From Siphonodentalium dalli (Eukaryota > Mollusca > Scaphopoda > Gadilida > Siphonodentaliidae): a stretch of 64,000 bases of DNA. Below the pieces are notes generated by a model. That model was not told where the DNA came from and did no database searches. It worked only from the letters and a program-made list of their open reading frames with translations. The translations under genes and the position numbers were made by a program. Positions 20,501-52,198 of the stretch are shown here, piece after piece (within the stretch, counting starts at the first letter, position 1; the number at the start of each line of letters is the position of its first letter). Where the stretch lies: assembly GCA_032622095.1 (NCBI GenBank), contig CP136066.1, forward strand, positions 48,520,911-48,584,910, in the 5' to 3' direction.

Positions 20501-20959
20501 TGTGACCCGCCATATCAAATCCAGTCGGAAGTCGGGATTTTTTTACCCTGTGCCAATGCATTCTCTTATATATGCGAGTCGACCATAGGTCGCCTCGCAT
20601 ATATAAGAGAATGCATTGGCCTAACAATATTTTACAATTTTAATAATTTTTTCTTGGATTCTTTAACAATTTTATAATTTCACCCATACAGAGCCCCAGA
20701 CAAACATGAGCAGACGAGACTCTTCTATATGCTTCTATATATGTGTGGGGCTCCCTGCAGGGTAATGGATGTTTTTTTATTTTATGTCCTAAAAATTGTC
20801 AGAAACATTTATTTAAAAAAAATGATAAAAAATTGTTAGGCCAATGCATTCTCTTATATATGCGAGGCGACCTATGGTCGACTCGCATATATAAGAGAAT
20901 GCATTGGCACAGGGTAAAAAAATACCGACTTCCGACTGGATTTGATATGGCGGGTCACA
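20501..20959. mobile_element. MITE family H with TA flanks
   Basis: Inverted termini of about 36-40 bp start TGTGACCCGCCATATCAAAT, and both ends are flanked by TA. Inside are two 69-bp palindromes in opposite orientation (20552-20620 and 20840-20908), with the same CTAACAATATTTTACAAT-type spacer edges seen in families D, E and G. The centre holds an extra 180-bp segment. TA flanks would fit a Tc1/mariner-like mover rather than piggyBac. Confidence 0.8.
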
Positions 20960-20969
20960 TATGAACATG

Positions 20970-21336
20970 AATGGCTTTTAAGTATAACAAACCAGTCTCA
21001 AATCGTTCGAATGTTCCGTAAAATGCACTTAGGTTGTTCAACCACTATTATCTATAGAGTTAGAGCTAAATCAACATGAACCACAGAGGTCGCAGCATTT
21101 TATAATTAGGATTATGATTTATACTATGGTTGATATACACTTTATGATTTTCTATTAAAATAATAAACAATTTAAACGGGTACTGTACGCCATTTTCAAT
21201 AAATTCCCGGTAATAACAACGATCTAATATCGATATTACATAGGAAAATAAGTAATTTGAGTCGAAGATGTATTCTGTAAACGATCAGGTTAATATGTTA
21301 AAATCTTAAAATCAAAGTTAATCATTTGATATAAAT
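20970..21336. other. unannotated stretch, no gene seen
   Basis: AT-rich. Nothing recognisable. Confidence 0.4.
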
Positions 21337-21340
21337 TTAA

Positions 21341-21864
21341 AGCCACGGGCGGTGTTCGTTGCAGAAATATTCATATTTGTTCAAATCGCCACCAACAGAA
21401 GGAATATTAAAATATATATAGTTTTGTTCATATGCCAAACATAATCAGCGCGTAAATAGTATATTGTCGTCAATGCGTGACGAACGATGGTGTACGTTAA
21501 AAAGAGCCTGCTCGTGTTACAGAAGTTTTGCTTCTGTTTACCTAACACAGCTCAATTCTATTGGTTAATACCACACAAATGATATCGACGCTCTTTATTA
21601 TTTCCATATCGGGAAAACAGTAACAAAGAACGCTCTTTATGTTTACCATATCCGGATATAAACAAAAGCCAGGTTCTGTAACGTTTTTTTGCTTGTGTTT
21701 ACATAACAAAGAAAAACATTTGACAATAACATACTGTTTATGCCATATTTCTGATTGGTATAAGAACAAGGTCTGTCTATATTTACTATTCTTTCCGTTT
21801 ATGGCGGTTTTTGACGGAGGTGAATATTTTAACAGCATACCCACCGCCAACACCGCCCGTATCT
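21341..21864 (+). mobile_element. MITE family C, copy 3 (most complete)
   Basis: TTAA-flanked. The left end AGCCACGGGCGGTGTTCG and right end CACCGCCCGTATCT are inverted repeats. It serves as the reference for the copies at 4082-4435 and 8104-8557. The 123- and 93-residue ORFs across it are not of a known transposase family. Confidence 0.8.
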
Positions 21865-22047
21865 TTAACTTATGGCTGGAGCCATACAATAAATTACGAA
21901 TTTCCGTGTACAAGACGTAATCAAATTACTTCATGGATAGTGGATTGGGCAACTCGTGGCACACATGATCGCGTAAACAATTATATTGTCACTGACTGGT
22001 GACTATACAATAGCTTCAATGAGTATATGGGACTAGTATACATATAA

Positions 22048-22435
22048 TCTCATATATATTTTGAAGACCTCTGTCTGTTTGTTTGTCTGTATGTTTGTCT
22101 GTATGTCATTTATACAAATCTACGATTCTCGACCGATCGGGACGAAACTTGGTACGTGTGTGTAGTTTGACCAGGCGGTGGGCGTTGTCGTATTGGTGAG
22201 CCCGTGCGGCGCCCGCTTCGCGCATGCACAGACGAGATCTCGGAAACGGGTGGAGCTATCGACTTGAAATTTGCTATGTGAATGTATCTTGCCCCGGATA
22301 CGAATTTTATCTGGTCGCCGAGCCCGTGCGTCGCCAGCTTCGCGCATGCGCAGACCAGATCTCTGAAACGGGTAGAGCTATCGACTTGAAATTTGGTTTT
22401 TGAATAGCCCGGACAATGTCGGGCTCATCGGCTAG
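22048..22435 (+). mobile_element. non-autonomous Helitron-like element, copy 1
   Basis: It starts with TCTCATATATATTTTGAAG after an A. It ends with a hairpin (AGCCCGGACAATGTCGGGCT), six bases and then CTAG. This is the Helitron layout: 5' TC, 3' hairpin, CTRR. The 5' part has CTGTCTGTTTGTTTGTCTG repeats. The body has two copies of a roughly 115-bp unit with GGAGCTATCGACTTGAAAT. No Rep/helicase ORF. The next copy starts at the base after CTAG. Confidence 0.75.
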
Positions 22436-22942
22436 TCTCATATATATTTTGAAGACCTCTGTTTGTCTGTATGTCTGTCTGTCTGTATGTCTTTAATACA
22501 AATCTACGATTCTCGACCGATCGGGACGAAACTTGGTACGTGTGTGTAGTTTGACCAGGCGGTGGACGTTGTCGTATTAGCGAGCCCGTGCGGCGCCCGC
22601 TTCGCGCATGCGTAGACGAGATCTCGGAAACGGGTGGAGCTATCGACTTGAAATTTGCTATGTGAATGTATCTTGCCCCGGATACGAAATTGTATCGGGT
22701 CGCCGAGCCCGTGCGACGCCAGATTCGCGCATGAGCAGACGAGATCTCGGAAACGGGTGGAGCTATCGACTTGAAATTTGGTATGTGAATGTATCTTGCC
22801 CCGGATACGAATTTTATCGGGTCGCGAGCCCGTGCGACGCCAGCTTCGCGCATGCGCAGACCAGATCTCGGAAACGGGGTGGAGCTATCGACTTGAAATT
22901 TGGTTTTTGAATAGCCCGGACAACGTCGGGCTCATCGGCTAG
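22436..22942 (+). mobile_element. non-autonomous Helitron-like element, copy 2
   Basis: Same 5' and 3' ends as copy 1, joined head-to-tail with no spacer, and ending CTAG before a T. The body has three, not two, of the roughly 115-bp units (CGAGCCCGTGCGACGCC, GCGCATGCGCAGAC, GGAGCTATCGACTTG). Several units contain an NRF1-like GCGCATGCGC core. The 142-residue minus-strand ORF reflects the internal repeats. Confidence 0.75.
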
Positions 22943-23975
22943 TATAACATATATTTGATACATTTGCTTGAAAACTGTCCAAAATTATCCATTTAAAGTA
23001 GCACACTCGTTTTTAATTTAAATTGTTTTAATTTACGACATACCCATTGTTTCACTGGTAATTTTCGACAGAAAGCCCTGGAGCGATCCTGATGTATTTT
23101 GTGGCAAGAGCTCTACGTCATGGCGCATTCGGCAAACCTCGTCAGATTCCATTTCAGACTCGGCTTTAATACAAGGCCATGGTTGATTCGAACTCTATCA
23201 TGTTATTTTGGGCTCGGTGACTGGGTCAAGTACAGGCGCGCCAATTTGAATTTAGATGTACTCCGTCGGTACGAAAACATTTACATTTAACGTCGAATCA
23301 AGCAATATAAAAGTGTTGTTTTACAACACTGATATAGAATATTCCATAAAATATCTATATGAAATTACCGTTGCGAGGTGACACAATTGGCGGATATGCC
23401 GTTGTCGAGTCATTACATACACCGCAAATCGGTGCTATATCAATGTCATTAAAATCGGATGGTTGACCCATGTTTCCGGATATTTGGTGATCAAAGAGCC
23501 ATAAATAATTATTGGATCGAATAACTGGTAAAACACCACACGTAATCGGAATATTTTATGCGAAACGTCGGCTATAGAGTGGTGACAAATATAATCATCC
23601 GCGAAAAATGAGTTCAAATTGCACCAGAGAGCTAGGCCCCAGAGGTCATAGGTCGAGGTGTCCAGAATGCGTCATGACGTTCCTACAGGCGGCGTAACGA
23701 GAATTTCTTATCTGTGTGATGCCAAAATTATTGCAAAACAATGAATTTCATCGAAAAAACCTTTAAAATATAATTTTCGTATTAACGGAAGCTGCCACTT
23801 TTGTCAAGTATTGTAGGTAACAGGTAATTCTAGGAGAATAAACGCGAGTGGAAACAGTAAAATTAAAACCTACACGTATGGCATATATCAGTGTACATAT
23901 TTGAATCCGAGTTTGTGATCGGTTGATCATGTACACGGCGGGAATGATCAAATCTGTCGAGATATCAACTGGACC
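22943..23975. other. unannotated stretch, no confident gene
   Basis: No repeat family is recognised. A 63-codon plus-strand ORF at 23099-23290 resembles no family I know, and no splice context was evident. Confidence 0.4.
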
Positions 23976-23978
23976 ATT

Positions 23979-24058
23979 GGAGCAACGTGACGTCATGTTT
24001 GGCATTCTACTTTTCCATATTGTTGGGAGTCATAAAGCCAACATGACGTCACGATGTT
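23979..24058. repeat. hairpin with a CRE-like site in each arm
   Basis: Arms ACGTGACGTCATGTTTGGC and GCCAACATGACGTCACGAT flank a 35-bp centre. Each arm contains TGACGTCA (23988-23995 and 24044-24051), the CREB/ATF palindrome. Confidence 0.7.
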
Positions 24059-24179
24059 CGAGCGTGGCATGTTCTCTCTGTCCATGTCATCGATCGCTGG
24101 TATCCAATGGTAACCGGCCGTTTACGGTCACACAAAGAAAGCGGATTAAAACGCACTATAAGGATTGGATTGACTTTAA

Positions 24180-24572
24180 CCCTTTACCCAACAAACCGGC
24201 CAAAACCGGCCAAATAAAGCTTCAACAGCCTAAAATATCTTCGGTCTGTCTCAATAAAACCATACAAATATGGATATCATTGGAACCGGCTCCTTGACCA
24301 CATTGTGATAGTTACAGTTATGCCCTGTGCCAATGCATTCTCTTATATATGCGAGTCGACCATAGGTCGCCTCGCATATATAAGAGAATGCATTGGCCTA
24401 AAATAAAATCTTTTTTTAACACTTTTTACCATTTTTTCTTACATTCTTTAACAATTTTATAATTTTTAATGTGTTAAGCCAATGCATTCTCTTATATATG
24501 CGAGGCGACCTATGGTCGACTCGCATATATAAGAGAATGCATTGGCACAGGGCCGTTCTGTTGGGTAAAGGG
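24180..24572. mobile_element. MITE family E, copy 1 (intact)
   Basis: TTAA-flanked with termini CCCTTTACCCAACA and TGTTGGGTAAAGGG. It contains two 69-bp palindromes in opposite orientation (24329-24397 and 24478-24546) around an AT-rich spacer with TTAACAATTTTATAATTT. The left part also has ACCGGCCAAAACCGGCC. Probably piggyBac-like by target site. It lies at the left edge of the next family I element. Confidence 0.88.
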
Positions 24573-24579
24573 TTAAGGG

Positions 24580-25000
24580 AACTATTGCAGAATGAGGTCC
24601 CCATTTAATTATGCTACCCCATGCACACAGCGTGCTATATAGCATCCCCAAATTCCCCCTCTGGGGGGATCTCAATCTGCCTATAGGCCACATTTTCTGG
24701 GAATTATCTAGTCTCAAATTTACATTGTTTACATTTTTTCTTTCTGGATAGGAAGTTTCTATATCCCCTAATTTGCAGAAGCTAAAATGCATAATCGAGG
24801 TGACTAATGAGTGACCATCAGCAACTTGAACTGGGGAACTTCAATTTACCCTACGTCTTATCTAGCAGTTGAGGCCTCATCATAATTAGGTTCACAAGGG
24901 GGGATTTGGCGATGCTAGCCCGCCGTGTGAGACATCGTCACTAAATTCACCCTCTGGGGACCTCGTTCTGCAAATGACAGACGCACTATATCCAGACTTG
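24580..25000 (+). mobile_element. family I hAT-type MITE, copy 2 (decayed)
   Basis: Contains a partial family palindrome at 24590-24682 (GCAGAATGAGGTCCCC ... GATCTCAATCTGCC) and a second at 24870-24972, then the right end CGCACTATATCCAGACTTG. Its middle (CCCCTAATTTGCAGAAG, AAAATGCATAATCGAGGT) matches family I copy 1 at 19056-19100. Confidence 0.6.
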
Positions 25001-25075
25001 TAATTCAACTGGTATATTTTTTCAATAGACAAAAGACGACGAAAGGGGGGAAAATCAGTAATGAAATATAGTTAG

Positions 25076-25336
25076 CCCTTCGATGACTGGAGCTTTGTGA
25101 AATTTTGCGAAAACCCAGTGTGAATGCATTCTCTTATATATGCGAGCCTGCATGCCATAGGGAGCCTCACATATATACGAGAATACGTTAGCCTAACAAT
25201 ATTTACCTTGACCTTGTAAGTCAGTGCATTCTATGATATATGCGAGCCGCCCTAAACTGTATACTTGCATATATAAGAGAATGCACTGGCAGAGGGGTTT
25301 TAATGCTGTACCAGTGCAGCTCCCGTCACAAAAGGG
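25076..25336 (+). mobile_element. MITE family D, copy 2
   Basis: The left end CCCTTCGATGACTGGAGC follows TTAG (a changed TTAA). The right end GTCACAAAAGGG abuts TTAA. It carries two degenerate palindromes, at 25120-25192 and 25221-25290. Confidence 0.75.
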
Positions 25337-25340
25337 TTAA

Positions 25341-25935
25341 TAACCCAATTCACCGGGTAACATTCAAGTTTCATTTTTTTCCATGAAGTTTTGAAATAGA
25401 AAAGGTAATGCAACTACGAAAAATGTTGTCTCCCTATTATGTTTTCGTCACATGTTTGTGGTCATTCTTGTTGCTGGCTTCACATATTTGGCCACCGAGA
25501 GTCAAACAGTGAGTGGGTTTTTTTTCTAGATCTATATGTCACACACATGAGTTTTGTTTACTCTACTCTATCATCGGACATGAGAGAGATGTATAGGGTA
25601 TGATATGCAAGCGCGCATACCAAACACACGAAAACCGACGTACAGCACTTAATCTTCGATATGACCATTCCATTCATCGTTTAGACTTCGCGTTCCATAT
25701 AGTACTCGTATCACATTTGTTTATATAATCTTTAAGCCTCAGATTAGACCGAATAATTGCGACATTTTGTCACGTTCCGGGAATCAATCTGGGTCGCTAA
25801 TTACAGGCAATACATACGGACTTCAGGTAGACACTGCTTGATCTTATCAACTTTTTACAGATCCGGAATAGCCCGCTCGAAAAGTTCTGTACATCATGCA
25901 CTTCCTCTCCAAGCTTTATATCAGCACGGGCATTT
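25341..25935. other. unannotated stretch, no gene seen
   Basis: No recognised repeat or exon. Confidence 0.4.
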
Positions 25936-26460
25936 CCGTAGATCACAATCATGATGACAGATAACACATCTTTGTTTACAGTATTTTAATACTTAACCCT
26001 TTACCCAACAGAAGGGCCCTGTGCCAATGCATTCTCTTATAAGAGAATGCATTGGCTTAACACATTAAAAATTATAAAATTGTTAAAGAATGTAAGAAAA
26101 AATGGTAAAAAGTGTTAAAAAGAGATTTTTTTTAGGCCAATGCATTCTCTTATATATGCGAGGCGACCTATGGTCGACTCGCATATATAAGAGAATGCAT
26201 TGGCACAGGGCATAACTGTAACTATCACAATGTGGTCCGTAGATCACAATCATGATGAAAGAACGAATGTTCCATAAGATTATATGTCTTCAGCGTATAA
26301 TATATCATATTTCAAGAGACAACGAGAAATGGTCACGCTAAATGAGATTCTGACACATTGTTCACATTCTTCAAATAACATAGTCTTATAGCGTGGGGCC
26401 AGCAAATGGATAGATAACACATCTTTGTTTACATTATTTTAATACTTAAGTTACTGGCCC
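25936..26460. repeat. local duplication flanking MITE E copy 2
   Basis: CCGTAGATCACAATCATGATGA occurs both left of the MITE (about 25936) and right of it (about 26236). GATAACACATCTTTGTTTAC followed by ATTTTAATACTTAA also occurs on both sides (25958-25996 and 26412-26452). Part of the right copy resembles 33440-33570. Confidence 0.7.
25997..26237. mobile_element. MITE family E, copy 2 (right-truncated, one collapsed palindrome)
   Basis: The left end CCCTTTACCCAACAGAAGGG follows TTAA. The first palindrome (26023-26056) has lost its entire centre and is now a perfect 34-bp palindrome. The second (26136-26204) is intact. The right terminus is absent: similarity stops at CAATGTGGTC and the duplicated flank begins. 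Confidence 0.85.
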
Positions 26461-27040
26461 TCAGTGGACATCGAATGTTTGCATATTTTACATAGTTTTC
26501 GCATCCGCACCATTGACATTCTCGGTGAATAGCAATTCTAGCAACAAGAAGTGCACATTCCTTGGTCGGTTTCAGTATCACAAAAAACTGTTGTGGGTAG
26601 ACGCCCTCTCGAAACACACTGAAACCCCACGTGATCTAAAATTGTCGCCGTCCATATATGGAGGCCCGAATAAGGTAGCTATGTCATTTCTCAGCCACTT
26701 AACCGATTTCGGTCAAACAAAAAAGGCGTTGTAGTGTGGCACCAAGACCCTTTCGCAAGCCCCACCCGATTCAACATTGCCGCCGCATTGAATCTCCAAT
26801 GTTCTTTCTGCCATTTTGGCAGTCATCCCACTTCACGCGGATGTCTGTTCAATAAAAACAAGGCGCATACACAATGAATACAGCACATTCACATCGATAT
26901 AATCACACACCCTTTACATTCACACAAAATTAGCACCCGTATATAGGAATCAGTACATTTCGCCATACAGTTTACATGACCGTTTCGGATGTTCATTAAC
27001 CAATAACTGAAGTCGACAGTTATTGTTAGCTCAACTTACT
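26460..27040. other. unannotated stretch, no gene seen
   Basis: No recognised repeat or exon. Confidence 0.4.
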
Positions 27041-27043
27041 TTG

Positions 27044-27840
27044 TAAGTGATTTTGGGGTCGTTCGGCCAAAAAACATGGCCGACAGCAGCCATCTTGGAT
27101 TTTACTCTTTGCATGACTAAATCCTTTGGCGCGGGCTACAGGTCGTACCTTTGGTCTGATCTTTATGTAATTTGTCATGAATGTTGATATTGACATGTAG
27201 ATGGGAACGAGTCATTTTGGGGTCATCTGGCCAAAAAAAATGGCGCTGGCGGCCATCTTGGATTTCAAAATTCAATCCATTGGCGCGGGCTACAGGTCGT
27301 GCTGTTCGTCTGATCATCATGAAATTTGTCATGGATGTTAATATTGACATGTAGATGGGAACGAGTGATTTTGGGTTCGTTCAGCCAAAAAACATGGCCG
27401 CCAGCAGCCATCTTGGATTTTACTCTTTGCATGACTAAATTCTTTGGCGCGGGCTACATTTTGTAGCTTTGGTCAGAACTTCATGAAATTTGTCATGGAT
27501 GTTAACAATGACATGTAGATGGGAAACGAGTCATTTTGGGGTCGTTCAGCCGAAAAACATGGCCGCCAGCAGCCATCTTGGATTTGACTATTTGCATGAC
27601 TAAATCCATTGGCACAGGCTACAGGTCGTACCTTTGATCAGATCATTATGAGATTTGTAAAGGCTGTAGATGGGAACAGGTAATTTTGGGGTAATTCGGA
27701 AAAAAACATGGCTGCCGGTGGCCATTTTAGAATTTACTCTTTGCATCAATAAATCCTTTGGCACACCATAATCACCACATCCCTGATCCGATCATTATGA
27801 AACCTGTGATGAATGTTGATATTGACATGTACATCTAGTC
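27044..27840. repeat. tandem repeat of about 158 bp with YY1-like motifs, five units
   Basis: Units contain GGTCGTTCGGCCAAAAAACA, GGCCGCCAGCAGCCATCTTG and GACATGTAGATGGGAACGAG. The CCATCTTGGATTT block resembles the YY1 site (AAGATGGC core) in reverse. Units are 150-168 bp and diverge rightward. One inverted unit lies at 29390-29535. Confidence 0.85.
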
Positions 27841-27965
27841 TTACTTAGACATTTCAATTAGCACCTTTCCTATTCCTCCATTTACTGTCAACCATAAAAT
27901 TATTCCCCTACCTAAGTTAAGTTTGATAAACATCGGAAACGCACACGTTACCTCAAGCCGATTGT

Positions 27966-28175
27966 ATGCATGCGCTTGCTGCGTGTTGTTATTGTGTGCA
28001 CGCGCTTGCTGCATGTTGTTATTGTGTGCACGCGCTTGCTGCATGTTGTTATTGTATGCACGCGCTCGCTGCATGTTGTTATTGTGTGCACGCGCTTGCT
28101 GCATGTTGTTATTGTGTGCACGCGCTCGCTGCATGTTGTTATTGTGTGCACGCGCTTGCTGCATGTTGTTATTGT
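27966..28175. repeat. 30-bp minisatellite, seven units
   Basis: Unit includes GCACGCGCTTGCTGCATG and TTGTTATTGTGT. A period of 30 keeps several frames open on both strands (Leu/Cys-rich and Asn/Ala/His-rich), so these ORFs are artefacts. Confidence 0.95.
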
Positions 28176-28286
28176 GAGACTACATGACATTGTGCTGGAA
28201 TTTAAACAATATGTTACTTATAATTGTTTTGGTAGTTTTGAAAAGTTGTTCAAATCATTAATGTCCTATTAAAATGTACTGGAGTA

Positions 28287-28446
28287 TAAGGAATGACTTG
28301 CACATCGACTGGGGGTCATCGGTTTTGACCAGCAGAGTAATTAAACAAAGTTCGTCGTGTGAATCCCTTCAGGATTCCCACACTTTGTTTAATTACTCTG
28401 TCAGTCAAAATCCAATGACCCCAATCGATCTACAAGTCATTCCTTA
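28287..28446. repeat. long imperfect palindrome (hairpin 3)
   Basis: Arms of about 70 bp run from AAGGAATGACTTG to CAAGTCATTCCTT. They include GTAATTAAACAAAG against CTTTGTTTAATTAC and a centre near GAATCCCTTCAGGATTCC. MITE G copy 1 is inserted at the TTAA at its right edge. Confidence 0.85.
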
Positions 28447-28447
28447 A

Positions 28448-28694
28448 CCCTTTGAGTGCCAGGGGCCGATCTCATCGGCCCTAAACCTACAAAATAAGTC
28501 TGTTAAAGAATATAAGAATAAATTATTAAAATTTAAATAAAAAGTAAAACAAAAAATAAAAAAAAATAAAAATAAAAAGGCCAATGCATTCTCTTATATA
28601 TGCGAGGCGACCTATGGTCGACTCGCATATATAAGAGAATGCATTGGCACAGGGTATATGGGTTGATACAAAAATAGACCTGGCACTCAAAGGG
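28448..28694. mobile_element. MITE family G, copy 1
   Basis: TTAA-flanked with termini CCCTTTGAGTGCCAGG and CCTGGCACTCAAAGGG. It carries a single 69-bp palindrome (28580-28648) and the GTTAAAGAATATAAGAA spacer shared with families E and H. Confidence 0.88.
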
Positions 28695-28699
28695 TTAAA

Positions 28700-29385
28700 T
28701 ATACTCTTTATCAACCTGGTACACATGAGATTATATTAATTTTCTAACTTGTTTAATGTACTGTAAAAAATAATGAACATCGGCGTTAAAACTTTTGAAA
28801 TCGGGCAATTGTTATCAAATTATGCCCTTAACTTTTTAAATGTTGGCATCTGTTGGCATCTGCCATATTCTGAAAATCCGCTAATGTGTACATGTACGCA
28901 TGTATCTTCTTATTTCTGTCGAACTATGGCTTAATACTCGAACTTATTTCCTATATAAAAGATCAAATCTTGGTGAAAATGGTATTTTTCTGGCGGCCAT
29001 TTTGAACATTGAAGATAGCCGTCACAGGGTCGAGCAAAAACAGTGGAAACATAGATTTCCGAACTCAGACTCAGTAAAGTCGAAGCTATATTCAAAAAGA
29101 TATATTTTCCAAAATCCACAAGAAAGAAAAACTGAACTAAGTAAGGAAAATAGCATGACATTTGGAATATATGGCCGAATTGGTATACATAATACAGTTT
29201 AATACTGCGTTTATGTCAAGTACTAGTATTCATTTGTTGTCAATGTTATTGAATGGTTCTTCTCTGCAACACGGGGTGGGGTGGTCGATGAGACTCAAAA
29301 ATATTTTTCCTGCAAGTCTTTTTGACTGTTTTTGCAATGAGTTTGGCTTAAAACACATCTATATGTCAATATTAAAATAAATGAC
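28700..29385. other. unannotated stretch, no confident gene
   Basis: ORFs of 100 and 76 codons overlap on opposite strands at about 28900-29200 and match no family known to me. Confidence 0.4.
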
Positions 29386-29389
29386 AAAT

Positions 29390-29535: not shown

Positions 29536-29584
29536 TCCATGACTAATAGTATACACAGAAATTCATATACATCTGTTTACAGTG

Positions 29585-29795: not shown

Positions 29796-29869
29796 TTGTA
29801 TATATAATCCCCACTCATGGCATTCCATCAGGCTCGTATCTTATTGACTTAATTTCGAATTACAGTTAA

Positions 29870-30127
29870 CCCTTCCATGACTGGAGCTTACTGAAATTTG
29901 TGAAAACCCTGTGCCAATGCATTCTCTTATATATGTGAGTCTCCCATATAGAGAGCCTCCCATATATAAGAGCATACATTGGCCTAACAATATTTACCTT
30001 CACCTTGTAAGTCAGTGAATTCTCTTAAATATTCGAGGCTCCATATGGGAGACACGCATAAGAGAACGCGCTGGCACAGCATCTTATCTTTAATGCTGCA
30101 CCAGCGCAGCTCCAGCCATGGAAGGGT
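29870..30127 (+). mobile_element. MITE family D, copy 3
   Basis: The left end CCCTTCCATGACTGGAGC follows TTAA. The right end CAGCCATGGAAGGG is intact, but the right TTAA has become TCCT. Degenerate palindromes lie at 29913-29983 and 30011-30075. Confidence 0.8.
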
Positions 30128-30510: not shown

Positions 30511-30518
30511 TTCCAGAT

Positions 30519-31030: not shown

Positions 31031-31033
31031 ATG

Positions 31034-37118: not shown

Positions 37119-37511
37119 CCCTTTACCCAACAGAAGGGCCCTGTGCCAATGCATTCTCTTATATATGCGAGTCGACCATAGGTCGCCTCGCATATATAAG
37201 AGAATGCATTGGCTTAACACATTAAAAATTATAAAATTGTTAAAGAATGTAAGAAAAAATGATAAAAAGTGTTAAAAAAAGATTTTTTTTTAGGCCAATG
37301 CATTCTCTTATATATGCGAGGCGACCTATGGTCGACTCGCATATATAAGAGAATGCATTGGCACAGGGCATATCTGTAACTATCACAATGTGGTCAATGA
37401 CCCGGTTCCAATGATATCCATATTTGTATGGTTTTATTGAGACAGACCCAAGATATTTCAGGCTGTTGAAGCTTTATTTGGCCGGTTTTGGCCGGTTTGT
37501 TGGGTAAAGGG
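37119..37511. mobile_element. MITE family E, copy 3
   Basis: The right end abuts TTAA. The left flank reads TTATAA in place of TTAA. Two intact 69-bp palindromes (37145-37213 and 37294-37362) are oppositely oriented. Relative to copy 1 the whole element is inverted, with ACCGGCC blocks near the right end. Confidence 0.88.
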
Positions 37512-37598: not shown

Positions 37599-38403
37599 GA
37601 AGCTGGAGAAATTCCCTGGTTGTTAATGGGTTTCTCACTCTGCCGTGAACAAAAACGTGTGGACAATAGTAAAATGTCATTTGTGTGGAATATAAGTAAC
37701 CCTTTCGTTGGCCGCTTTATGAATAATGTATAAGATAAGTTTAATAGGCAAAACAACCTTATAAGGACAGTATGCAAACATAATAATATATAGTTGTACA
37801 TTGAACAATATAATAAATGATATAATAATAGATGGTAATATATAGCTGAATGTATATAGGGTCGTCTCGTCTTCATTTATTCATTGCTTATGAGGCGATG
37901 CTCATCGCGTGCGGAAATAATTTTCGGATTATATGACATATTGAAGTGCATGAATTTGAAATATTGTTGGATAGGATTTTGACAAGCTGTTCAGTTTGTG
38001 TCATGTTTTCAAAGCCTGGGAACTGTGTCTTCATAAGAGTTATTAGTTCGAGCCGCGGTGTGCGGTAAGCACTACATTCCAAAAGAAAGTGTTTTTCATC
38101 TTCAATAGCATCATCGGAACAAAATATACATAGTCTTTGTTCCAATGCCGTCGGTGGTTGGGTGTGGCGTCCCTTTTCAATAGCCAGTTTATGATTACTT
38201 ATACGCAGTCTAGTAAAAACGATTCTATTTTCTATTGATGGTGTGTGAAGAAGATAAGGTTCTATTTCGTACTTAAGTTTGAATAGTCGGTATGTTCGTA
38301 ATTTATTACTTAATTTATTATATATGATTCCATATATTGTATGCACGGTGTTTCTTTGTTGAATACACACTTTGGTCACACACATATCGTTCTTGATCTA
38401 CTA
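37599..38403 (-). mobile_element. 3' part of a non-LTR retrotransposon (LINE)
   Basis: Comprises the C-terminal coding fragment below plus about 290 bp downstream. It matches 40035-40258, which carries both ends but lacks about 590 bp of the middle. The shared left and right limits mark the repeat unit. No reverse transcriptase core is present, so the copy is 5'-truncated. Confidence 0.65.
37888..38385 (-). pseudogene. C-terminal fragment of a LINE ORF2-type protein
   Basis: A 165-residue frame. It contains LSNKLRTYRLFK, then RLRISNHKLAIEKGRH at about 59-74, then a zinc-binding-like C-x2-C-x9-H-x4-C motif (C86, C89, H99, C104; LCIFC and KHFLLEC). This arrangement is common in the C-terminal tails after the reverse transcriptase domain in animal non-LTR retrotransposons. 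No FADD-type catalytic motif is present, and stop codons lie directly upstream of the first methionine, so only the tail survives. A role in transposition is inferred from family resemblance. It is not expected to be active. Confidence 0.65.
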
Positions 38404-43505: not shown

Positions 43506-43509
43506 TGCA

Positions 43510-44505
43510 GTTAAGAAAATCTGAGATGAAGGAAATAGATTTCACACTTCAATATCATCTATTTTCATCAAATTTCTCACTGTAAACCATATTAAGGGGG
43601 AGACTCACGTTTGCAAGGAATTATCAACAACGAATTTCACTGGATCTATCAGGCAAATAAATCTTAAGTTTGAAACTCATATCATCATCTTCATTCATAA
43701 AGAATCTGAGCAATTGTTGAGAGACAACAAAAACAGTGGATTTTAATACATTTGAGACGTTGAAAATATGATTTTATCTTTTGTTCGGTCTGTGTGTAGA
43801 CAGTTGACCTATTACTTCCATCGAATTTCGAAATAAGACGAATTAAATCACGATTCTTCTGTTCCAGATTCAAATTCTCGACGTTTTGTGAAGTATTGTT
43901 TATCGGATTGTCCACGGTTGGTTAGGCGGACAAAATATTAACCGGAGTTATTGATTCGCACACCGGTCGGAGAAAGAGCGAACCACCAATTAACCCTATT
44001 CAGTCGACAGAAATATGTAGAATACAAGAAAAGCCTGGAAATCCCACGTTAAACAATGAGGGGGGGGGGGGGTCAGAACAAGTTCCATACACGTGTGATA
44101 CCCTTTTACCTTTGGCAATTTGTTTAGCCGACCACCCCTCGATCCATATAAATTAGTCTCTAGTAACGATGGCAGACTAATACCAGGCAATAGAAGTGGA
44201 AGTCATACACGTTTTATTGTAGGATAAATAAACACCAACATAACGTATGTCGTAGAATGGGGAGCTCTGTGTAGCACTATAGCTCCAGTACCTTTTGTAA
44301 GTGTTTCGACCTGTTTGTATCACCATGTTAATGGGTTTCCACGCCTGATCTATGTCAGGAGGTAGATATTTTAGGTGGACTAGGTAGATCTATATACAGA
44401 AAACTACTTAATTGTTAAGCTCAGTAAACCACATGAATTAATCTATGATACCTTAAGACCACATCAAGCGTATTATGTAACAATACAAATGTAAAAAAGA
44501 TTACA
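43510..44505. other. unannotated stretch
   Basis: A run of about 12 G residues lies at 44059-44072. No gene or shared repeat is seen. Confidence 0.4.
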
Positions 44506-44509
44506 TTAA

Positions 44510-44959
44510 AGGTACTCAATCCGATTCGATGGTCCCCATATCATCAGATCCCAACATCAACAACACTTTTTGAAATGCCGCTTCAGTTATCAGAATCGAG
44601 TAATTGCCCAAAAATAATGCTAACCACAGTCAACTATAGTATAAAATTGCCCAAAAACCTGTTATTTATCAACATTTTGTTCAACGAAATTTTGCTGGTT
44701 TGTCAAATATCTGAGACAAAAAAGGCCACTTGATTTTACAGTTATCAACCTTCATCCACATTTTGGTCCGATACCGTCTTCTCGTCGACTGTTTACTGGG
44801 CAACTTAAAATTATCGGTGATGAAAAATAATACATTACAGACATCGATATCTGATCACTCTGAGCTTTGGTGGGTGGGTTCCTAGATTCGAATCAACTAT
44901 TGTTTACCTCCGAAGCCAAAGAAATAGTAATTTGCAGCGTTGATTCGGATTATGCATCT
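44510..44959 (+). mobile_element. MITE family A, copy 3
   Basis: TTAA flanks both ends exactly (44506-44509 and 44960-44963). Termini AGGTACTCAATCCGATTC and GATTCGGATTATGCATCT. Same orientation as copy 1. Confidence 0.85.
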
Positions 44960-45165
44960 TTAATATTATTTGTGACATAGTTTTAGAAGGGAACTTTTGG
45001 GAAGAGCGTTCTCATCAAGTATACAAATTGATTGGATGAATAACTGCCATAAAAAGTGCATGATCTGAACAAGTAAAAGTCCTGTAAAAATATATATGTT
45101 CCGGTTCATGAATGTCTCACTGGCTTTTTCTCAAATAGCGCGGATTTACCATCCACCGCGAACTT

Positions 45166-45293
45166 TAGAAAACGGTATACTTTCATAACAACATCATTTT
45201 CTCCCACCAGCATCATAACAATCCAGACAATTTCAGTAGGAGTCCTGCAGGACCAACCAGCATCAATACAAGGACCACTCAACCAGTGGGGTG
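45166..45293 (+). mobile_element. TIR element J, fragment
   Basis: Resembles the right arm of 32601-33156: AACGGTATACTTTCATAACA, CAGGACCAACCAGCATC and GGACCACTCAACCAGTGGGG. The left part is missing. Confidence 0.6.
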
Positions 45294-45764
45294 AATTCGT
45301 GAGCGTAATTTAAAAGTATGATTCCTGGTCACCAGGATCACAGACTTATCGACGTTTCGACGGATTTTCCTAAATAATTTCTACCAAAGTTACTAACCCA
45401 ACATTATAGGTCATACGCCTCATACACTATAAGTTTATAAATGTACTGTGTGATATAAATCCTCCGATTCCGACTCGTTACTCTATAAAGTAATGTATAA
45501 TGATGTAATTTGAAAACCACACCATATCTGCGCGCGGCGTAATGACCTTATTAGCCATGAAATACACTCCGACGTTATCGAATCAAGGAACGGGGAATGT
45601 AACAGCTTGTTACTTTTTCTGTCAAACTTTCTTGACCGTCCTGGTAATTCGGTTCGGTAAACAAATCTAACACAATTATCTATAGCGAAGTGGTTGCGAT
45701 ATGACGAAAAATCCCATACTCGGGCTGTGTGGGTGTATATCATGTCAATACTCTGGAATTTACT

Positions 45765-45985
45765 CTTCTTCTTTTTTTGCGATATCGGCTCACAAAAGTC
45801 ACAGAAAAAAGCATGCAATTTTAAGTTGGGTACATTATTAAGGACAGATTATAATTAAGAAATATATTCCCCGTGTTATTTTTTCGATTTTATAAGGGTC
45901 CCTTTCAAAAGTTCCCATGTATTTTTACTGGTGGAATATGACCTCTACGGGCGTCAGCCAGAGTATAGATTCATGGCATGATCAA
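45765..45985 (-). mobile_element. foldback element L, one-armed copy
   Basis: TTTTGCGATATCGGCTCACA, TACATTATTAAGGACAGAT and AATATATTCCCCGTGTTA match the right half of 57672-58155. The end CAGAGTATAGATTCATGGCA matches the left half of 59160-59490 inverted. Confidence 0.65.
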
Positions 45986-45999
45986 GTGTGGGTGGTACG

Positions 46000-46680
46000 G
46001 ACCCCTGAAAAACACATTTTCACGGTGCTTGCAATTTTTTTTCCCGAATTATTGACAATGAAGATATTCTGTAATTCAGCAGTCTAATTAACACCTTTTA
46101 TTAAGTAGGAGGGTAACTACATAAGTATGTTGACCCAGCTGCTTTAAATTTCCTCGGTAAGATTTAAGTGAGGTCTAAAATCTACTCAGGTGTGTTAGAA
46201 TGGGTACAATGAGCCATGCCATCATGAACAATGACATCAGAAGAACTGGAAAATATTTATCAATAAAATAGAGGGTTTCAATTCCATGTGAATGTAGAAA
46301 AAATATGCATATTATTTTATTCCAATTTGAAATTGAATTAAAAACACGACACGTGTAGTACCATCACAACACATGCCCGTGAGTTTTATGTACATAATTG
46401 TTACTATCACTCAATATCATCTGAAGTGTACGATTCAAGTGAGTCAGATATTTAAAACATTTAGTTGATAAGTAGCTGAGTCTGATACCAATTGTCTTAT
46501 AGTTTATAACAGGTACACTCAAAACCTTTCAACAGAGGAATAACGTTATTTGTATCAGTCTATCATTAAATGATGTGTATACATTATTCAGAATTAAGGG
46601 AGATGACGAAAAGTTCCAATAAAGACAAAATACATACTCGGACAGATTATATAAACAAAATTGTAAAAATCATGGGGAAA
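46000..46680. other. unannotated stretch, no gene seen
   Basis: AT-rich. Nothing recognisable. Confidence 0.4.
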
Positions 46681-46724
46681 GGGACGTGGGTCCCCAATTT
46701 GCTAGAGGTGAAATTGTTTTATTT

Positions 46725-46820
46725 TTGCACATAAGGGGTGGTGGGTACCTTGTTGCCAAGTTCTTGGGCGTTTTCAGCGCTGTGTACGGATTTTTGTTAC
46801 CCCCCCCCCCCCCATTATTA
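46725..46820. repeat. G-rich block and poly-C tract, loose copy 3
   Basis: AAGGGGTGGTGGGTACC precedes a run of about 14 C residues and CATTATTAGCGC. The layout resembles 10140-10300, but sequence identity is weak. Confidence 0.4.
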
Positions 46821-47042
46821 GCGCAGTTATAGTTAGGCTGTTAAAGCCTGTGTACAGTTTTATGCATTGTGGTGGTTGTGGGGACATACCACCCCAAGCC
46901 TGCAAAAAAAAATTGTACACAGGTTGTCCGAGTCAAGATAATATACGTAGACTTTTATTTAAATGTTGGGACCACTAGTCATCCTCACCCATTTTATATT
47001 ATGTTTTTTTCGATACACATTTCGGGCACCCCCTCCTTTATC

Positions 47043-47290
47043 ATTTCTAAATTATTGCCACGACGTCGTATTTACGACAGATGTATGAGACAAATACAAT
47101 TACTGAAAATCGTGTCTTTGTACTTGTTTCATACGAGGTCGTGTCGACAATTTAGAAATAACCCCTTGATCGAAATTTTCCAACTTTTACCTCAAGCTGA
47201 CACCCCACGCCCCTGCCACCACGTCCCTGTCACCACGTCCCTCTCACCACGCCCCTGTCCCGTGTCCCTGCTACCACGTCCCTGCAGGTA
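47043..47290. repeat. imperfect palindrome (hairpin 6) and adjoining 14-bp tandem
   Basis: 47043-47164: ATTTCTAAATTATTGCCACG pairs with GGTCGTGTCGACAATTTAGAAAT-type sequence, and GTATGAGACAAATAC with GTACTTGTTTCATAC. 47210-47290: imperfect CCACGTCCCTGTCA units. The 151-codon ORF spanning both is not supported by any domain. Confidence 0.7.
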
Positions 47291-47356
47291 CATGTTCATG
47301 TCCCTCATCTCAAGTTATATATGAACACATAGATTACTTGGTGATTGTGGCTTTAA

Positions 47357-47830
47357 CCCTTTCAGTGCCAGGGGCCGATCTTATCGGCCCTAATTTACGG
47401 TCTGTAACATCGGCCCTAAAAAATTTAAAAAAGGAAAACAATTAATTTTCGATTGTTTTTTTTTTTGTTGAATTTTTTTTGGGTATGCTTAAGCATGATA
47501 GCGAATTTAAAAACAAACTGGTTAAAACCTTAGGGATATGTTATAACTCAAAACTATCACCACGTATTCATAGTAATAATTTTGATGCTCATGAAAAATG
47601 TAAGATTCCCTGGCACTAAACCTACAAAATAAGTCTGTTAAAGAATATAAGAAAAAATTATTAAAATTGTAAAAAATTGTAAAAAATAATAACAAATGAT
47701 GAAAAATTGTTAGGCCAATGCATTCTCTTATATATGCGAGGCGACCTATGGTCGACTCTCATATATAAGAGAAGGCATTGGCACAGGGTATATGGGTTGA
47801 TACAAAAAATCGGACCTGGCACTGAAAGGG
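47357..47830. mobile_element. MITE family G, copy 2
   Basis: TTAA-flanked with termini CCCTTTCAGTGCCAGG and CCTGGCACTGAAAGGG. It has a 69-bp palindrome with two changes (47714-47782) and the GTTAAAGAATATAAGAAAAA spacer. It is longer than copy 1 by an extra AT-rich left half containing a second ATCGGCCCTAA. Confidence 0.88.
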
Positions 47831-47922
47831 TTAAAACCTAATAGTGCACCTTGAACATCAGTATAATCTATTGAAGATATCTACCTCTTGAATTATCTTC
47901 CCAACAGGTCATTGATTCCAGG

Positions 47923-48992
47923 CAGGGCCTGATCCAGGTTTTATTTGGGGACACCTCCCGATGATCGAAGGTCATCGCCGACTGCCGAAGGGGAGAGTAT
48001 GAGAGGGGTGGCCCCACTCATTGGGGCTGTCCGGGGGGCCTCCCCCGGGAAATTTCTTGAAATTTCAATGCTCTGAGAGTGATCTTGGGCATATCTGAAG
48101 GATGATTTTCATTTTTTAACCAAAGAGAATTTTATACTTTCAGTAGCTATTAATATGACCAGAGTCACTTAAGCTAGAAAAAAAAATTCATTTAATACAT
48201 GAATTCAATTTATATTTATACACAAAAGAAAAGACATAATGAACCAACATATTTATTTCAACTTACAAGATAACATTGTTTTTAACAGAATTAAACAAAC
48301 ACACATAATGATAACAGATTAATATATGATCATAATAATGCATAATATAATCTAATAATGTATAATATGAGCCACTGTATGACTGAGATGAAAAAGATAG
48401 AATGAACAGTCCTGCAACATTTGTCATTATTTCTTATTCTAGGTTTGTAGTTAAACACTCTCAAAATTATGTTGTGTTGTTCTATTTGTTTCCAATTGAT
48501 ATACCGGTATATGTTAGGGCCCTAGTAATTAGAACTAATCTCTACGTTAATTATTCATTTGGTATTATGAGATCCCACCTGATAACCAGGTTGATTTGAT
48601 CAAATTGTCACTGTTCCTATACTGTATTGTGTAATTTAGCTTTAATTTGATTGAAATACTAAAGTCTGAAGGCTGAATGGTAACAAACCTGAACTATTTG
48701 AAGTTTTCACAGATGAAAGCTAGATAGAACCAAACATACTTTACAGTATGATTCCAACTGCTAAACTTAAATCTTTTTGTAAACTTAAATGTCTTATGTC
48801 AATATATATAAATACATAAATTCTGTGTATCTTGTTATAATATGAATTGGGACCTGAATTTTTTTTTTTAAATTGTATTTTTTTTTTTTTGGAATAATTT
48901 TTTTTTTTTTGCCTTCAATTTGTTTGGGCGCCCAAACTCAATGTCCCCAAACCCGGTATACCGGCGTCGAAAACGGGCTGGGTCAGGCCCTG
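47923..48992. mobile_element. non-autonomous hAT-type element, 1.07 kb
   Basis: Inverted termini CAGGGCCTGATCCAGG and CTGGGTCAGGCCCTG. GC-rich next to the ends (GGGGGGCCTCCCCCGGGAAA) and AT-rich inside, with poly-T runs near 48890. No clean 8-bp target duplication (CCAGG lies near both ends) and no transposase ORF. Confidence 0.7.
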
Positions 48993-49389
48993 CCAGGGTA
49001 CACAATAATATATATCAATCGAGGATGCATATCCGGAAAATTAAGCTTCTATCAATTAATATCGATTTTATTTAGAATTTCTTATGACATGGGACAGTTT
49101 TAGTGACTATTTTTAGAACAGAAATATGCGCGAAACGCACGGAGCGTTCCAAGAGAGAGATAGAGAGAGAGGGAACCGTGTCTTATTGGTATCCTCTATC
49201 AAGGCAAACTGCAGATCTGCTAAGAGATTTACCGCGAATTACGATCGAAATAGACAAATAATATACCACATCTTCAGTTTGATCTGTATGTTATTCATGA
49301 AATAGCCATTTGCCCGCCTTGAAATCGGGATTTATAAATCATTATGGTGTTATTTGAATTGTTGCCTGGAACAGTTAGACCACCTTTAA

Positions 49390-49626
49390 CCCTTCCATGA
49401 CTGGCTCTTCCTGAAAACCCTGTGCCAATGCATTCCTTATATATGCCAGTCTCCCATAAGAAGCCTCGCGTATACAAGAGAATACATTGGCCTAACAATA
49501 TTTACCTTGACCTTGTAAGCCAGATCATTCTCTTGAATATGCGAGGCTCCCTAGGGGAGAGTCATAAGAGAATGCGCTGGCACAGGTTCTTTAATGCTAC
49601 ATCAGCGCAGCTCCTGCCATGAAGGG
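49390..49626 (+). mobile_element. MITE family D, copy 4 (both TTAA sites intact)
   Basis: Left end CCCTTCCATGACTGGCTC and right end GCTCCTGCCATGAAGGG, both abutting TTAA. Degenerate palindromes lie at 49423-49491 and 49519-49581. Confidence 0.85.
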
Positions 49627-49849
49627 TTAAACGATGTCGAGATCTGTTTACGTAATTGGTGGAATAAATTAATAGAGAGGTTTAGATCGAAAACTTCTAA
49701 CTCCGTTCTTCAGACATAACAGATAGACTATATAGTTATCTGCGCCCGAGGCGGAATGACCCTCTAGTCACGTCCCTGTGAATAAGCTATAGGTTACATG
49801 AACCTTCTGCAATACTGAGGAGATTAGATTCGATTATGTGGGCTTCTAT

Positions 49850-49980
49850 ATATATAAAAGAGTAGGATCTGTCTGTCTGTTCTGATTTTTCTCCAGACCC
49901 CTATACCGATTTCAACCAAAGTTGGTGTGATGACTCGAGCTACCCTGGCGGAGGTTATAAAATTTTGCTTTAAAAAAAAT
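49850..49980 (+). mobile_element. possible Helitron-like 5' end
   Basis: TCTATATATATAAAAGAGTA, CTGTCTGTCTGTTCTG and ATACCGATTTCAACCAAAGT resemble the 5' region of the Helitrons at 22 kb in layout, not in close sequence. No matching 3' hairpin plus CTRR end was found. Confidence 0.3.
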
Positions 49981-49984
49981 TAAT

Positions 49985-50888
49985 TAGATAAATTTTAAAA
50001 CACATACAAATTAAAATATGGGCTTATTTCAGAATCAAATAAATGTGAATATTTAGGTTCAATAGGAACCCATTTTCAGACCAGATGTACGCTCTTTGTA
50101 AATGTGTTTTCACTGTGACCCGCGCCATCCAACATAATAACGCGTATAAGTCCACTATGGCCTTGCTTGGCTTATTTCAGAATCAAATCAGACAAACATG
50201 CACACAGGGCCATAGGACCCTGACATACAAAGGGGTCACGGTGAAGGTTCCGCAGGCCCATTGGACGCTGAATAAAGGCTCCCGAAGTTAGCATGTTTCA
50301 GCTATTGTACTATACATATTTAGGTTGCAATTAGTTCCAACGCTCGTGAGTAATTTTCCCAATTACCATTGACACGAAAATTTGATTTTACCTTTACATG
50401 TAAGTGGGATTTATTACATTATCGATGAACTGAAACAATTGTAGATATGTTCTCATCGACACATTCTCCACATACGTTTTTGCCATGTGCAACTATCTCG
50501 TCCACACACGTGCGACACGCAGATAAATCTGGAATATGAAACTGTAGTTCCGAGTTCTAATAGCTCTCAAACAGACGATCAACTCTACCAAACAATAGGC
50601 ATGTTCTTAATATGTTGTGCCTAACCATAGACATATTACGATCTCAGCCGACCATACGAGTGTGACGGTTAATTTTATTAAAGTATTGCAACATGTTATA
50701 AATGCATTTATCACATAATTTGGCCATAAAAGCAGTTTCATAATTATCGGTAATAGACACGTTTAATATCAGCGCGTGCGATGACGTCACGGCGTTCTTC
50801 AAATAACTTGCGATCGCTGTAGTTTATAATTGTTGTTTTCGATGAATATTTCGCGTTGCTTCGGGTTTATTTGATCATGTGATAAAAG
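49985..50888. other. unannotated stretch, no gene seen
   Basis: A CRE-like TGACGTCA is at 50782-50789 in a small CpG-rich patch. Nothing else recognisable. Confidence 0.4.
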
Positions 50889-51032
50889 GTATCTCACACT
50901 CGTCCTATTTTATACGTAATTTATCAACCTCGTCCTCTAAATTCTATTTGAGCCTCGGTAAACCTCGGCTCAAATCGAATTTAGTGAACTCGGTTGATAA
51001 ATTCCGTATAAAATAGAAACTCATGTGAGATC
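50889..51032. repeat. long imperfect palindrome (hairpin 7)
   Basis: Arms of about 65 bp, GTATCTCACACTCGTCCTATTTTATAC-like against its complement, with the centre GCCTCGGTAAACCTCGGC. Confidence 0.88.
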
Positions 51033-51219
51033 CTCTATATATGCAATAAACATGTATACAAATTATGTACATTCACGACGCTCCCACGAGGAGGCAATAA
51101 ACCATATCTCTTGAAGTTGGCTTGTTAAATATTGTGTCTCTTTGCCATGAACGTTCTGTATCGATCATGTGCAAAATAATAATTTTGAGTCAGAGAGATC
51201 AGTTGTCATGAGCTTCTAT

Positions 51220-51310
51220 ACTAAATACTCATTGACGAGTAGTTATACCTTAGGAATTGTTCGGATAATAAGTTATTATCTAAGCATGTCACTCAATTAA
51301 TAGGACTCCT
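51220..51310 (-). repeat. dispersed repeat M, short fragment
   Basis: ACTCATTGACGAGTAGTTAT, then GATAATAAGTTATTATCT and ATAGGACTCCTCA, match one end of the copies near 1.9 and 7.7 kb with an internal deletion. Confidence 0.5.
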
Positions 51311-51420
51311 CAACATTATGTCACACAAATTTCAGACGATAACAATAGGTTCACATTAATGTGATATATAGAGTTTCAAACCAATATTTATACATATCTA
51401 AACAATCCCTCCAACTTTAA

Positions 51421-51815
51421 GGGGGAGGTCAAGTGACCAAAATTGAATGGGAATTTGCATGCAAATCTCCGCAGCAAAAGTTACAGGATTGCAAATTTTT
51501 CTGGGTGTGACTTGAAAATAATACACATTTATTTGGCGGGTCGGCTTGCAATTTGTTCCATTAGAATGTTGATGTATTTATTTTTTATGTTTTATTCATT
51601 TTTCAAAACTAGGTCAAGTCTTGTAATTCCAGAAAAAAATTCTCTTAAAATAAATTTATAGCAAAAATTGCCTATTTACCAAGCCCAGCCGCCAGATAAA
51701 TGTTATGTCTATTTAATGATATGGCTGCTTTAGTTCCCAGACAAAAGCTTCATATATAACTTTTGCTGGGGAGATTTGCATGGAAATGCCCATTCAAAAT
51801 TGGGTCACTAGTCTC
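51421..51815. mobile_element. MITE family F, copy 1
   Basis: The left end GGGGGAGGTCAAGTGACC follows TTAA. The right end is worn (GGGTCACTAGTCTC) but abuts TTAA. Interior matches 52339-52752: GGCGGGTCGGCTTG, CAAAACTAGGTCAAG, TTTGCTGGGGAGATTTGC. The right TTAA is shared with MITE E copy 4. Confidence 0.8.
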
Positions 51816-51819
51816 TTAA

Positions 51820-52198
51820 CCCTTACCCAACAGAAGGGCCCTGTGCCAATGCATTCTCTTATATATGCGAGTCGACCATAGGTCGCCTCGCATATATAAG
51901 AGAATGCATTGGCTTAACACATTAAAAATTATAAAATTGTTAAAGAATGTAAGAAAAAATGGTAAAAAGTGTTTTTTTAGGCCAATGCATTCTCTTATAT
52001 ATGCGAGGCGACCTATGGTCGACTCGCATATATAAGAGAATGCATTGGCACAGGGCATAACTGTAACTATCACAATGTGGTCAAGGAGCCGGTTCCAATG
52101 ATATCCATATTTGTATGGTTCTATTGAGTCAGAGCCAAGATATATTAGGCTGTTGCAGCTTTATTTGGCCGGTTTTGGCCGGTTTGTTGGGTAAAGGG
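51820..52198. mobile_element. MITE family E, copy 4
   Basis: Both TTAA sites are present. Left CCCTTACCCAACAGAAGG, right TGTTGGGTAAAGGG. Intact oppositely oriented palindromes lie at 51845-51913 and 51981-52049. It is inserted at the TTAA that bounds MITE F copy 1. Confidence 0.9.

Follow-up and report, generated by a model that had tools for sequence, protein, structure and literature searches.

Elements and palindromes at the locus

The window analysed here, a 64,000-nt stretch of Siphonodentalium dalli contig CP136066.1, carries copies of four families of small element, designated D, E, G and H, which share a palindromic core. The copies, with the 75-bp units and older-type units that they contain, are as follows.

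10420..10680, plus strand: D element (right end approximate), older-type core; units 10458–10528 (plus) and 10560–10634 (minus)
20502..20958, no strand assigned: H element; 44-bp terminal repeats GTGACCCGCC..., two palindrome units, unique interior
20498–20501 and 20959–20962: ATAT duplication of this H element
20546..20620, plus strand: left 75-bp unit in H (CCCTGT and palindrome)
20840..20914, minus strand: right 75-bp unit in H
24180..24572, minus strand: E element, TTAA on both sides; units 24323–24397 (plus) and 24478–24552 (minus)
25076..25336, plus strand: D element, older-type core; units 25114–25192 (plus) and 25222–25296 (minus)
25997..26237, plus strand: E element, right end truncated (end approximate); left palindrome with a central deletion (26017–26056), right unit 26136–26210 intact
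28448..28694, minus strand: G element, TTAA on both sides; one unit, 28580–28654
29870..30126, plus strand: D element, older-type core; units 29907–29983 (plus) and 30013–30079 (minus)
37119..37511, plus strand: E element, flanked by ATAA (left) and TTAA (right); units 37139–37213 (plus) and 37294–37368 (minus)
47357..47830, minus strand: longer G element, TTAA on both sides; one near-intact unit, 47714–47788
49390..49627, plus strand: D element, older-type core; units 49418–49491 (plus) and 49526–49586 (minus)
51820..52198, plus strand: E element; units 51839–51913 (plus) and 51981–52055 (minus)

The repeat unit is 75 bp long, CCCTGT being followed by a 69-bp palindrome that folds as a 27-bp stem, one mismatch, a 5-bp stem and an ATA loop (−35.4 kcal/mol, z −15.6); this fold is the one that the initial annotation had described. 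All ten palindromes that it listed as intact lie where it placed them, as does the near-intact copy at 47714, although copies are not confined to the range it gave (20552..52049), others lying outside at 10458–10634. The 27-bp arm matched 30 places in the window at ≤3 mismatches, against 0 in 100 shuffles, and 420,400 places in the 2.23-Gb genome; there are 192,553 genome matches to the outward-facing combination of CCCTGT and arm (≤2 mismatches), which, set against the number of arms, is consistent with one CCCTGT per palindrome. Two units facing outward across an AT-rich spacer make up the core common to D, E, G and H (CCCTGTGCC...GGCACAGGG), G mostly possessing a single unit, as do both G copies of the window; the E core is off-centre, with asymmetric flanks. 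A search of the window against Rfam at gathering scores returned no match, and nothing on these sequences was found in the open literature.

Ends, target duplications and candidate transposases

At least four families of non-autonomous DNA transposon have this core as their interior, and the claim of four end types around one common core proved real. D, E and G have piggyBac-like ends, with inverted repeats bearing a CC[C/T]T terminal motif (CCCTTTACCCAACA, CCCTTTSAGTGCCARG and CCCTTYCATGACKGGAG), and TTAA is their usual flank, as had been supposed: it was present on both sides of 18/19 E copies fetched by internal sequence, and at 12/13 E, 10/12 G and 10/12 D single ends that had not been chosen by TTAA. 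H, with ends GTGACCC...GGGTCAC, had been described as TA-flanked; instead, 7/9 paired ends showed a 4-bp AWWT duplication (ATAT 4, AAAT 2, ATTT 1), the remaining two pairs being without duplication. The TA duplication of a Tc1/mariner-type MITE does not fit H, since 3/7 duplications (AAAT, AAAT and ATTT) cannot be read as TA, and the AWWT duplications likewise depart from the TTAA of a piggyBac-type element. Because its ends are different and its duplication is 4-bp AWWT, H is cut and joined differently from the other three families. One pair of H ends spaced at 4.3 kb, considered as an autonomous H, consisted of two ordinary H copies (L109).

The piggyBac transposase domain (PF13843) had 128 matches in the genome, many of them without stops. 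Flanking sequence covered parts of both flanks for 10 of the piggyBac genes and part of the left flank for a further 8; no inverted TTAA pair was present in these partial flanks, nor were the D, E or G ends, the arm or the core, in flanks that may stop short of some of the true ends. Candidate left ends were recovered there (TTAACCCTTTATCTGC and TTAACACGTTGAGTGCCGG), and none of the flanks read placed a transposase gene between exact D, E, G or H ends. We infer that D, E and G most likely rely on piggyBac transposases acting in trans and that H most likely has another transposase as its driver.

Core and ends are separable

Among units without indels and with ≤5 substitutions from the reference, the majority palindrome was identical in E (55 units), H (38) and G (12). 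D ends occur with both the older and the newer core; the G terminal repeat was found with the core and G spacer (L057, L062) but also without a core (L097), and G ends were found around an H-like interior (L096). In a single-copy stretch (L129), an E left end, an H terminal repeat and a core with E spacer are joined together, the outer junction having one genome match at ≤3 mismatches; no E right end was found in the 611 bp fetched, and no donor matched at the outer breakpoint. The same stretch could also have arisen by insertion of H into E, followed by deletion between two palindromes. Interior and ends are therefore separable, given these mosaics and the core-less relative, and the idea of one module inside different ends and target duplications holds. 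The predicted core-less E joint had 0 hits. With few readable mosaics (L129, L096), exchange is rare now.

An alternative that we consider unlikely is nested insertion, in which the core would itself be, or once have been, a transposon with CCCTGTGCC ends that inserted into several unrelated MITEs and was amplified with them. Its borders are indeed constant (CCCTGT...ACAGGG) amid sequence that varies on both sides, the G terminal repeat does exist without the core, and nested insertion does happen, one H copy having landed in an ATAT within an older palindrome's arm (L091). At three of 20 places chosen for an intact arm (L052, L053, L068), the spacer is of H type but at least one of the two H ends is missing; we read these as truncations, though an independent core would look similar. 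The ends at the other 17/20, however, are those of D, E, G or H, and the E core borders show no direct repeat (GAANGG on one side; CAT, TAT, CT, AAT or CGT on the other). In G and H, both borders of the core can be read as bearing a TA or TATA, which would favour nested insertion; within each of these families, however, one flank is an inverted copy of the other, and the repeat is therefore not decisive.

TTAA directly precedes the core at 274 exact junctions, compared with the 192,553 outward matches to CCCTGT and arm, a comparison in which the mismatch limits differ; the single junction read was a point variant of H (L109). The core was accordingly rejected as a stand-alone TTAA transposon. 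Independent mobility, one of the explanations first offered for the palindrome, found no positive evidence, the three copies without recognised ends leaving it some room.

Conservation of the palindrome

The palindrome had been thought better conserved than its surroundings, by selection or by gene conversion. In E and H sets not chosen by palindrome, its divergence was about that of the flanks (E 0.47% vs 0.62%, H 1.6% vs 2.0%; neither significant), and selection on the palindrome was rejected on this basis. Choosing the H set by intact arm gave p 0.05, a choice that favours intact palindromes; pooling E and H crudely gave p 0.055, at the cost of mixing ages. Palindrome deletions were seen in 4/38 E units vs 0/19 tails, numbers too few to be firm.

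In 122 new-type units, pair cells had changed on one side in 73 cases, on both sides with pairing kept in 1 and on both sides without pairing in 1; the private changes of young units are almost all one-armed, which opposes ongoing conversion between arms and led us to discard intra-palindrome correction. In 18 old units, 5 pair cells had changed on both sides with pairing kept, vs 1.4 expected, and the old and new cores differ at the stem tip on both arms with pairing preserved.

Ongoing ectopic gene conversion, keeping palindromes alike across families, would account for the shared majority sequence of E, G and H despite the divergence of H copies, 2–3 times that of E copies, but seems very improbable to us: substitutions persist in single copies and single arms, rates do not differ significantly from those of the flanks, and youth explains the identity of the palindromes.

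It is improbable, too, that the palindromes are functional cis elements, that is, putative transposase-binding sites maintained in every family by selection for mobility. They lie close to the ends of the TTAA elements, as in piggyBac and piggyBat, and the paired stem-tip changes between old and new cores count in favour, together with the paired changes of the old units, partly a lineage signature. Against this, the palindrome greatly exceeds the 19-bp piggyBac site in length and does not evolve significantly more slowly than its flanks, G mostly has only one, the H target duplication is different, and neither arm nor core was seen in the flanks fetched for the 18 piggyBac genes, some of whose true ends may lie beyond them.

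Discussion

The reading we favour, to which we give a probability of roughly 55%, is that several families carry a shared interior cassette which has gained new ends through breakage and repair of its palindromes. The cassette (CCCTGT–palindrome, AT-rich spacer, palindrome–ACAGGG) would be a passenger moved along with the ends surrounding it, and a new family would originate when it acquired new ones. As the likeliest route we infer a break at the hairpin-prone palindrome, which may be repaired by copying another palindrome-bearing element or by joining new DNA; a combination recognised by an abundant transposase could then be amplified to tens of thousands of copies. A more far-reaching version, which we regard as possible but doubtful, makes the hairpin interior a recombination hub at which ends were exchanged even across transposase classes with different target sites, with several switches of driver, until the palindromes of a single genome numbered in the hundreds of thousands.

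The nearest precedent for the cassette, by analogy of organisation as described, is the coral CMITEs, six TTAA piggyBac-type MITE families of about 1600 copies with different terminal repeats and one interior of ~75 bp, which varies less from family to family than the ends do; tandem arrays are described as well, and to the authors it was a mystery where this interior had come from (Wang et al. 2010, PMC2872659). Here, too, several families with different ends share one conserved interior. Compared with that description of CMITEs, however, the shared interior consists of long inverted palindrome pairs with a variable AT-rich spacer, copies are far more numerous, family H has non-TTAA 4-bp duplications, and the separation of ends from core is seen in a single-copy mosaic and in a relative without the core. 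What is new relative to the CMITEs so described is thus the palindromes, the scale and the crossing of target-site class.

D, E and G resemble piggyBac/TTAA MITEs in general in their TTAA duplication and CCCTT-type ends, but differ in their large palindromic core, which was not seen in the fetched flanks of 18 of the genome's piggyBac genes. Subterminal palindromes in piggyBac and piggyBat are described as being bound by two CRDs (C-terminal zinc domains), and as 14–19 bp long and part of autonomous ends (PMC7351741, PMC11707139). The palindromes here similarly adjoin TTAA ends; in contrast to those described, they are 69 bp long, form hairpins and are present in the non-TTAA family H as well. 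On end exchange in MITEs, nothing usable was found in the open literature.

These results bear on how MITE families can arise when no autonomous parent matches them. This genome has four families, old and new versions of the core, a relative without it and a single-copy mosaic, so that the sequence of events, and what palindrome breakage contributed to it, can be put to the test. That small elements with different ends and target sites carry the same hairpin core suggests that a successful interior can be re-equipped with new ends, and if TTAA and AWWT families have a core in common, non-autonomous interiors would be able to pass from one class of driver to another.

Results

The 27-bp palindrome arm had 30 matches in the window at ≤3 mismatches, against 0 in 100 shuffles. 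All ten intact palindromes listed in the initial annotation, and a further one at 47714, were found in place, and folding a single strand recovered the proposed hairpin (27 pairs, one mismatch, 5 pairs and an ATA loop; −35.4 kcal/mol, z −15.6). Across the genome (2,226,750,531 bases in 9 contigs; repeat counts are lower bounds throughout) the arm had 210,486 + 209,914 matches at ≤2 mismatches, and the reversed arm, searched as a control, had none. The repeated unit is 75 bp, CCCTGT followed by the palindrome, with CCCTGT oriented outward in the copies read; CCCTGT plus arm in this orientation had 192,553 matches genome-wide, 46% of the arm count, consistent with one CCCTGT per palindrome.

In the copies of families D, E and H that were read, two units face each other across an AT-rich spacer, together forming the core. 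Spacers are family-specific, although an AT-rich stretch like TTCTTTAACAATTTTATAATTTT is common to E, G, H and new-type D. The families are built as follows:

E: TTAA-CCCTTTACCCAACAGAANGG[core]CATAACTGTAACTATC...TGTTGGGTAAAGGG-TTAA, 380–393 bp in the three complete copies in the window
G: TTAA-CCCTTTSAGTGCCARG...CAACCCATATA[unit]..., with one unit as a rule
D: TTAA-CCCTTYCATGACKGGAGC...
H: GTGACCCGCCATATCAAATCCAGTCG...TTTTTTTA[core], then an inverted copy of the left flank on the other side

Among units without indels and ≤5 substitutions from the reference, the majority palindrome was identical letter for letter in E (55 units), H (38) and G (12), and one base different in D units with the new-type core (3). 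Older D units (18) had the stem tip CTCCC/GGGAG, as against CGACC/GGTCG, and both arms were changed. End and spacer were paired as expected in 123/178 units (nine overlapping or duplicate loci having been removed). The other 55 were read one by one: many were clipped at the boundary of a short locus, others were truncated or tandem arm copies, others again combined a D end with the new spacer or a G end with an H-resembling spacer, and two were mosaics (L129 and L096). Places selected by an intact arm had D, E, G or H ends in 17/20 cases (two likely duplicate pairs, L063/L064 and L062/L065, included), the other three (L052, L053, L068) carrying an H-type spacer but lacking one H end or both. 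H ends fetched regardless of core continued into it in 16/19 cases (near-duplicates L113/L115 and L119/L120/L121 included; the end is shortened in L128); in the remainder the core was truncated (L112), preceded by a different insert (L125, seen in L130), or part of mosaic L129 (L114).

In E copies L029–L047, the base preceding GGCCCTGT may be G, C or T, and ACAGGG is followed by CAT, TAT, AAT, CGT or CT; this variability falls exactly at the core borders and is unusually high for such young copies. A D element contains a 22-bp tandem repeat built from the outer palindrome arm (L017:2378-2491). Core copies at G000:C1:742213-926267 are spaced ~14.6 kb, then ~11.2 kb, suggestive of large tandem duplications here.

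Family counts are not additive, the mismatch limits differing between searches: E left junction 53,148 and E tail 32,813 (the latter query itself one mismatch off), H ends 28,043, H interior 18,823, G end 22,920 exact (core-less relatives included) and D end 15,073 exact (a 37-bp tandem satellite included). That satellite, derived from the transposon end, consists of tandem arrays of the D terminal repeat TTAACCCTTTCATGACGGGAGCTGCGCTGGTGCAGCA with a 37-bp period, at L108 (G000:C1:3260220-3260700) and further places.

Of 20 stretches fetched by internal E sequence, 19 held a readable copy (L048 held none), and 18/19 copies had TTAA on both sides, the exception (L039) having CTTA at its left flank. 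At ends not selected by TTAA (from the window, L009–L028, and L049–L068 minus L064), TTAA adjoined 12/13 E, 10/12 G and 10/12 D ends. H is not a TTAA element, and the TA flanks first ascribed to it were a misreading: 7/9 paired ends showed a 4-bp duplication, ATAT (4), AAAT (2) or ATTT (1), which was absent from the other two pairs. ATAT or AAAT preceded 14/19 single H ends, the rest following ATTG (3, near-duplicates), ATCT or ATGT (the mosaic). One H copy (L091), with ATAT on both sides, lies within an older-type palindrome arm, showing that H is mobilised as one piece together with its ends.

The suggestion that the palindrome is better conserved than its surroundings found no significant support. 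In 19 E copies, palindromes had 12 substitutions in 2,547 bp, compared with 13/2,113 in tail plus spacer (Fisher p 0.55; excluding four incomplete palindromes and ten incomplete spacers). Among 8 H copies selected without regard to the palindrome, the counts were 17/1,047 and, for terminal repeat plus interior, 38/1,898 (p 0.57; partial segments of L130, L090 and L092 left out), the interior alone giving 25/1,245; the combined rate is biased downward, six of the eight copies having been picked through an exact match to 26 bp of the terminal repeat. Seven H copies selected by intact arm, a biased set, gave 14/1,050 against 41/1,679 (p 0.05; the incomplete interior of L049 excluded). The unbiased comparisons are compatible with a mildly slower palindrome (E and H ratios 0.77 and 0.81), but the young age of the copies suffices to account for palindrome similarity. 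Long palindromes are expected to suffer internal deletions, and these affected 4/38 E units and 0/19 E tails, small numbers.

Piggybac-type transposase (PF13843) had at least 128 genome matches, many uninterrupted (116/649 candidates scored); many being stop-free, and some scoring identically, suggests recent activity. The flanks of 18 such genes were read in part (10 on both sides, 8 on the left), and contained no arm, no core, no D, E or G end beside TTAA, and no inverted TTAA pair; the true ends may therefore be located beyond the stretches read. One loose D-like match (L137) did not adjoin TTAA. Two sequences, TTAACCCTTTATCTGC and the G-like TTAACACGTTGAGTGCCGG, are candidate left ends.

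Elsewhere in the window, long open frames at 15514-16432, 5195-5766, 17092-17460 and 27839-28272 are simple or minisatellite repeats (e.g. SFRPGEQLLIIH) and probably not genes; a 169-aa frame at 37888-38397, minus strand, is putatively similar to the C-terminal portion of LINE reverse transcriptases.

Discussion

Interior and ends act as modules that can come apart, as the initial annotation had proposed: D ends are found with the old core and, like G, E and H ends, with the new one; the G terminal repeat also occurs without any core; and one single-copy mosaic joins parts of two families. The core-less example (L097, G000:C1:5950160-5950400) belongs with a small MITE bearing the G-repeat variant CAGTGCCAAGTC, also seen in L007 and in further inverted pairs spanning 129–215 bp. 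L096, of which one end was fetched, has a G end on an H-like interior, and a second such pair in the match lists near C1:5949343-5949579 implies that this type may be a small subfamily. The single-copy mosaic, L129, combines an E left end, the H terminal repeat and a core whose spacer is of E type; the outer junction had one genome match at ≤3 mismatches, and no E right end was found in the 611 bp fetched. An H end beside the core, amid E left end and E spacer, implies that one breakpoint falls within the shared unit or adjacent to it. Such a breakpoint would fit break and repair at the palindrome, or a template switch within the shared 75 bp; an H insertion in E with a later deletion spanning from one palindrome to another would fit also. 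Given how rare mosaics are, each family probably traces back to one event of this kind and subsequent amplification.

A search of open-access papers by sequence returned no match to these sequences. The kind of phenomenon is already known, in that coral CMITEs are TTAA families whose ends differ but whose interior is common to all (PMC2872659); compared with these, the S. dalli case is larger, palindromic, and crosses target-site class.
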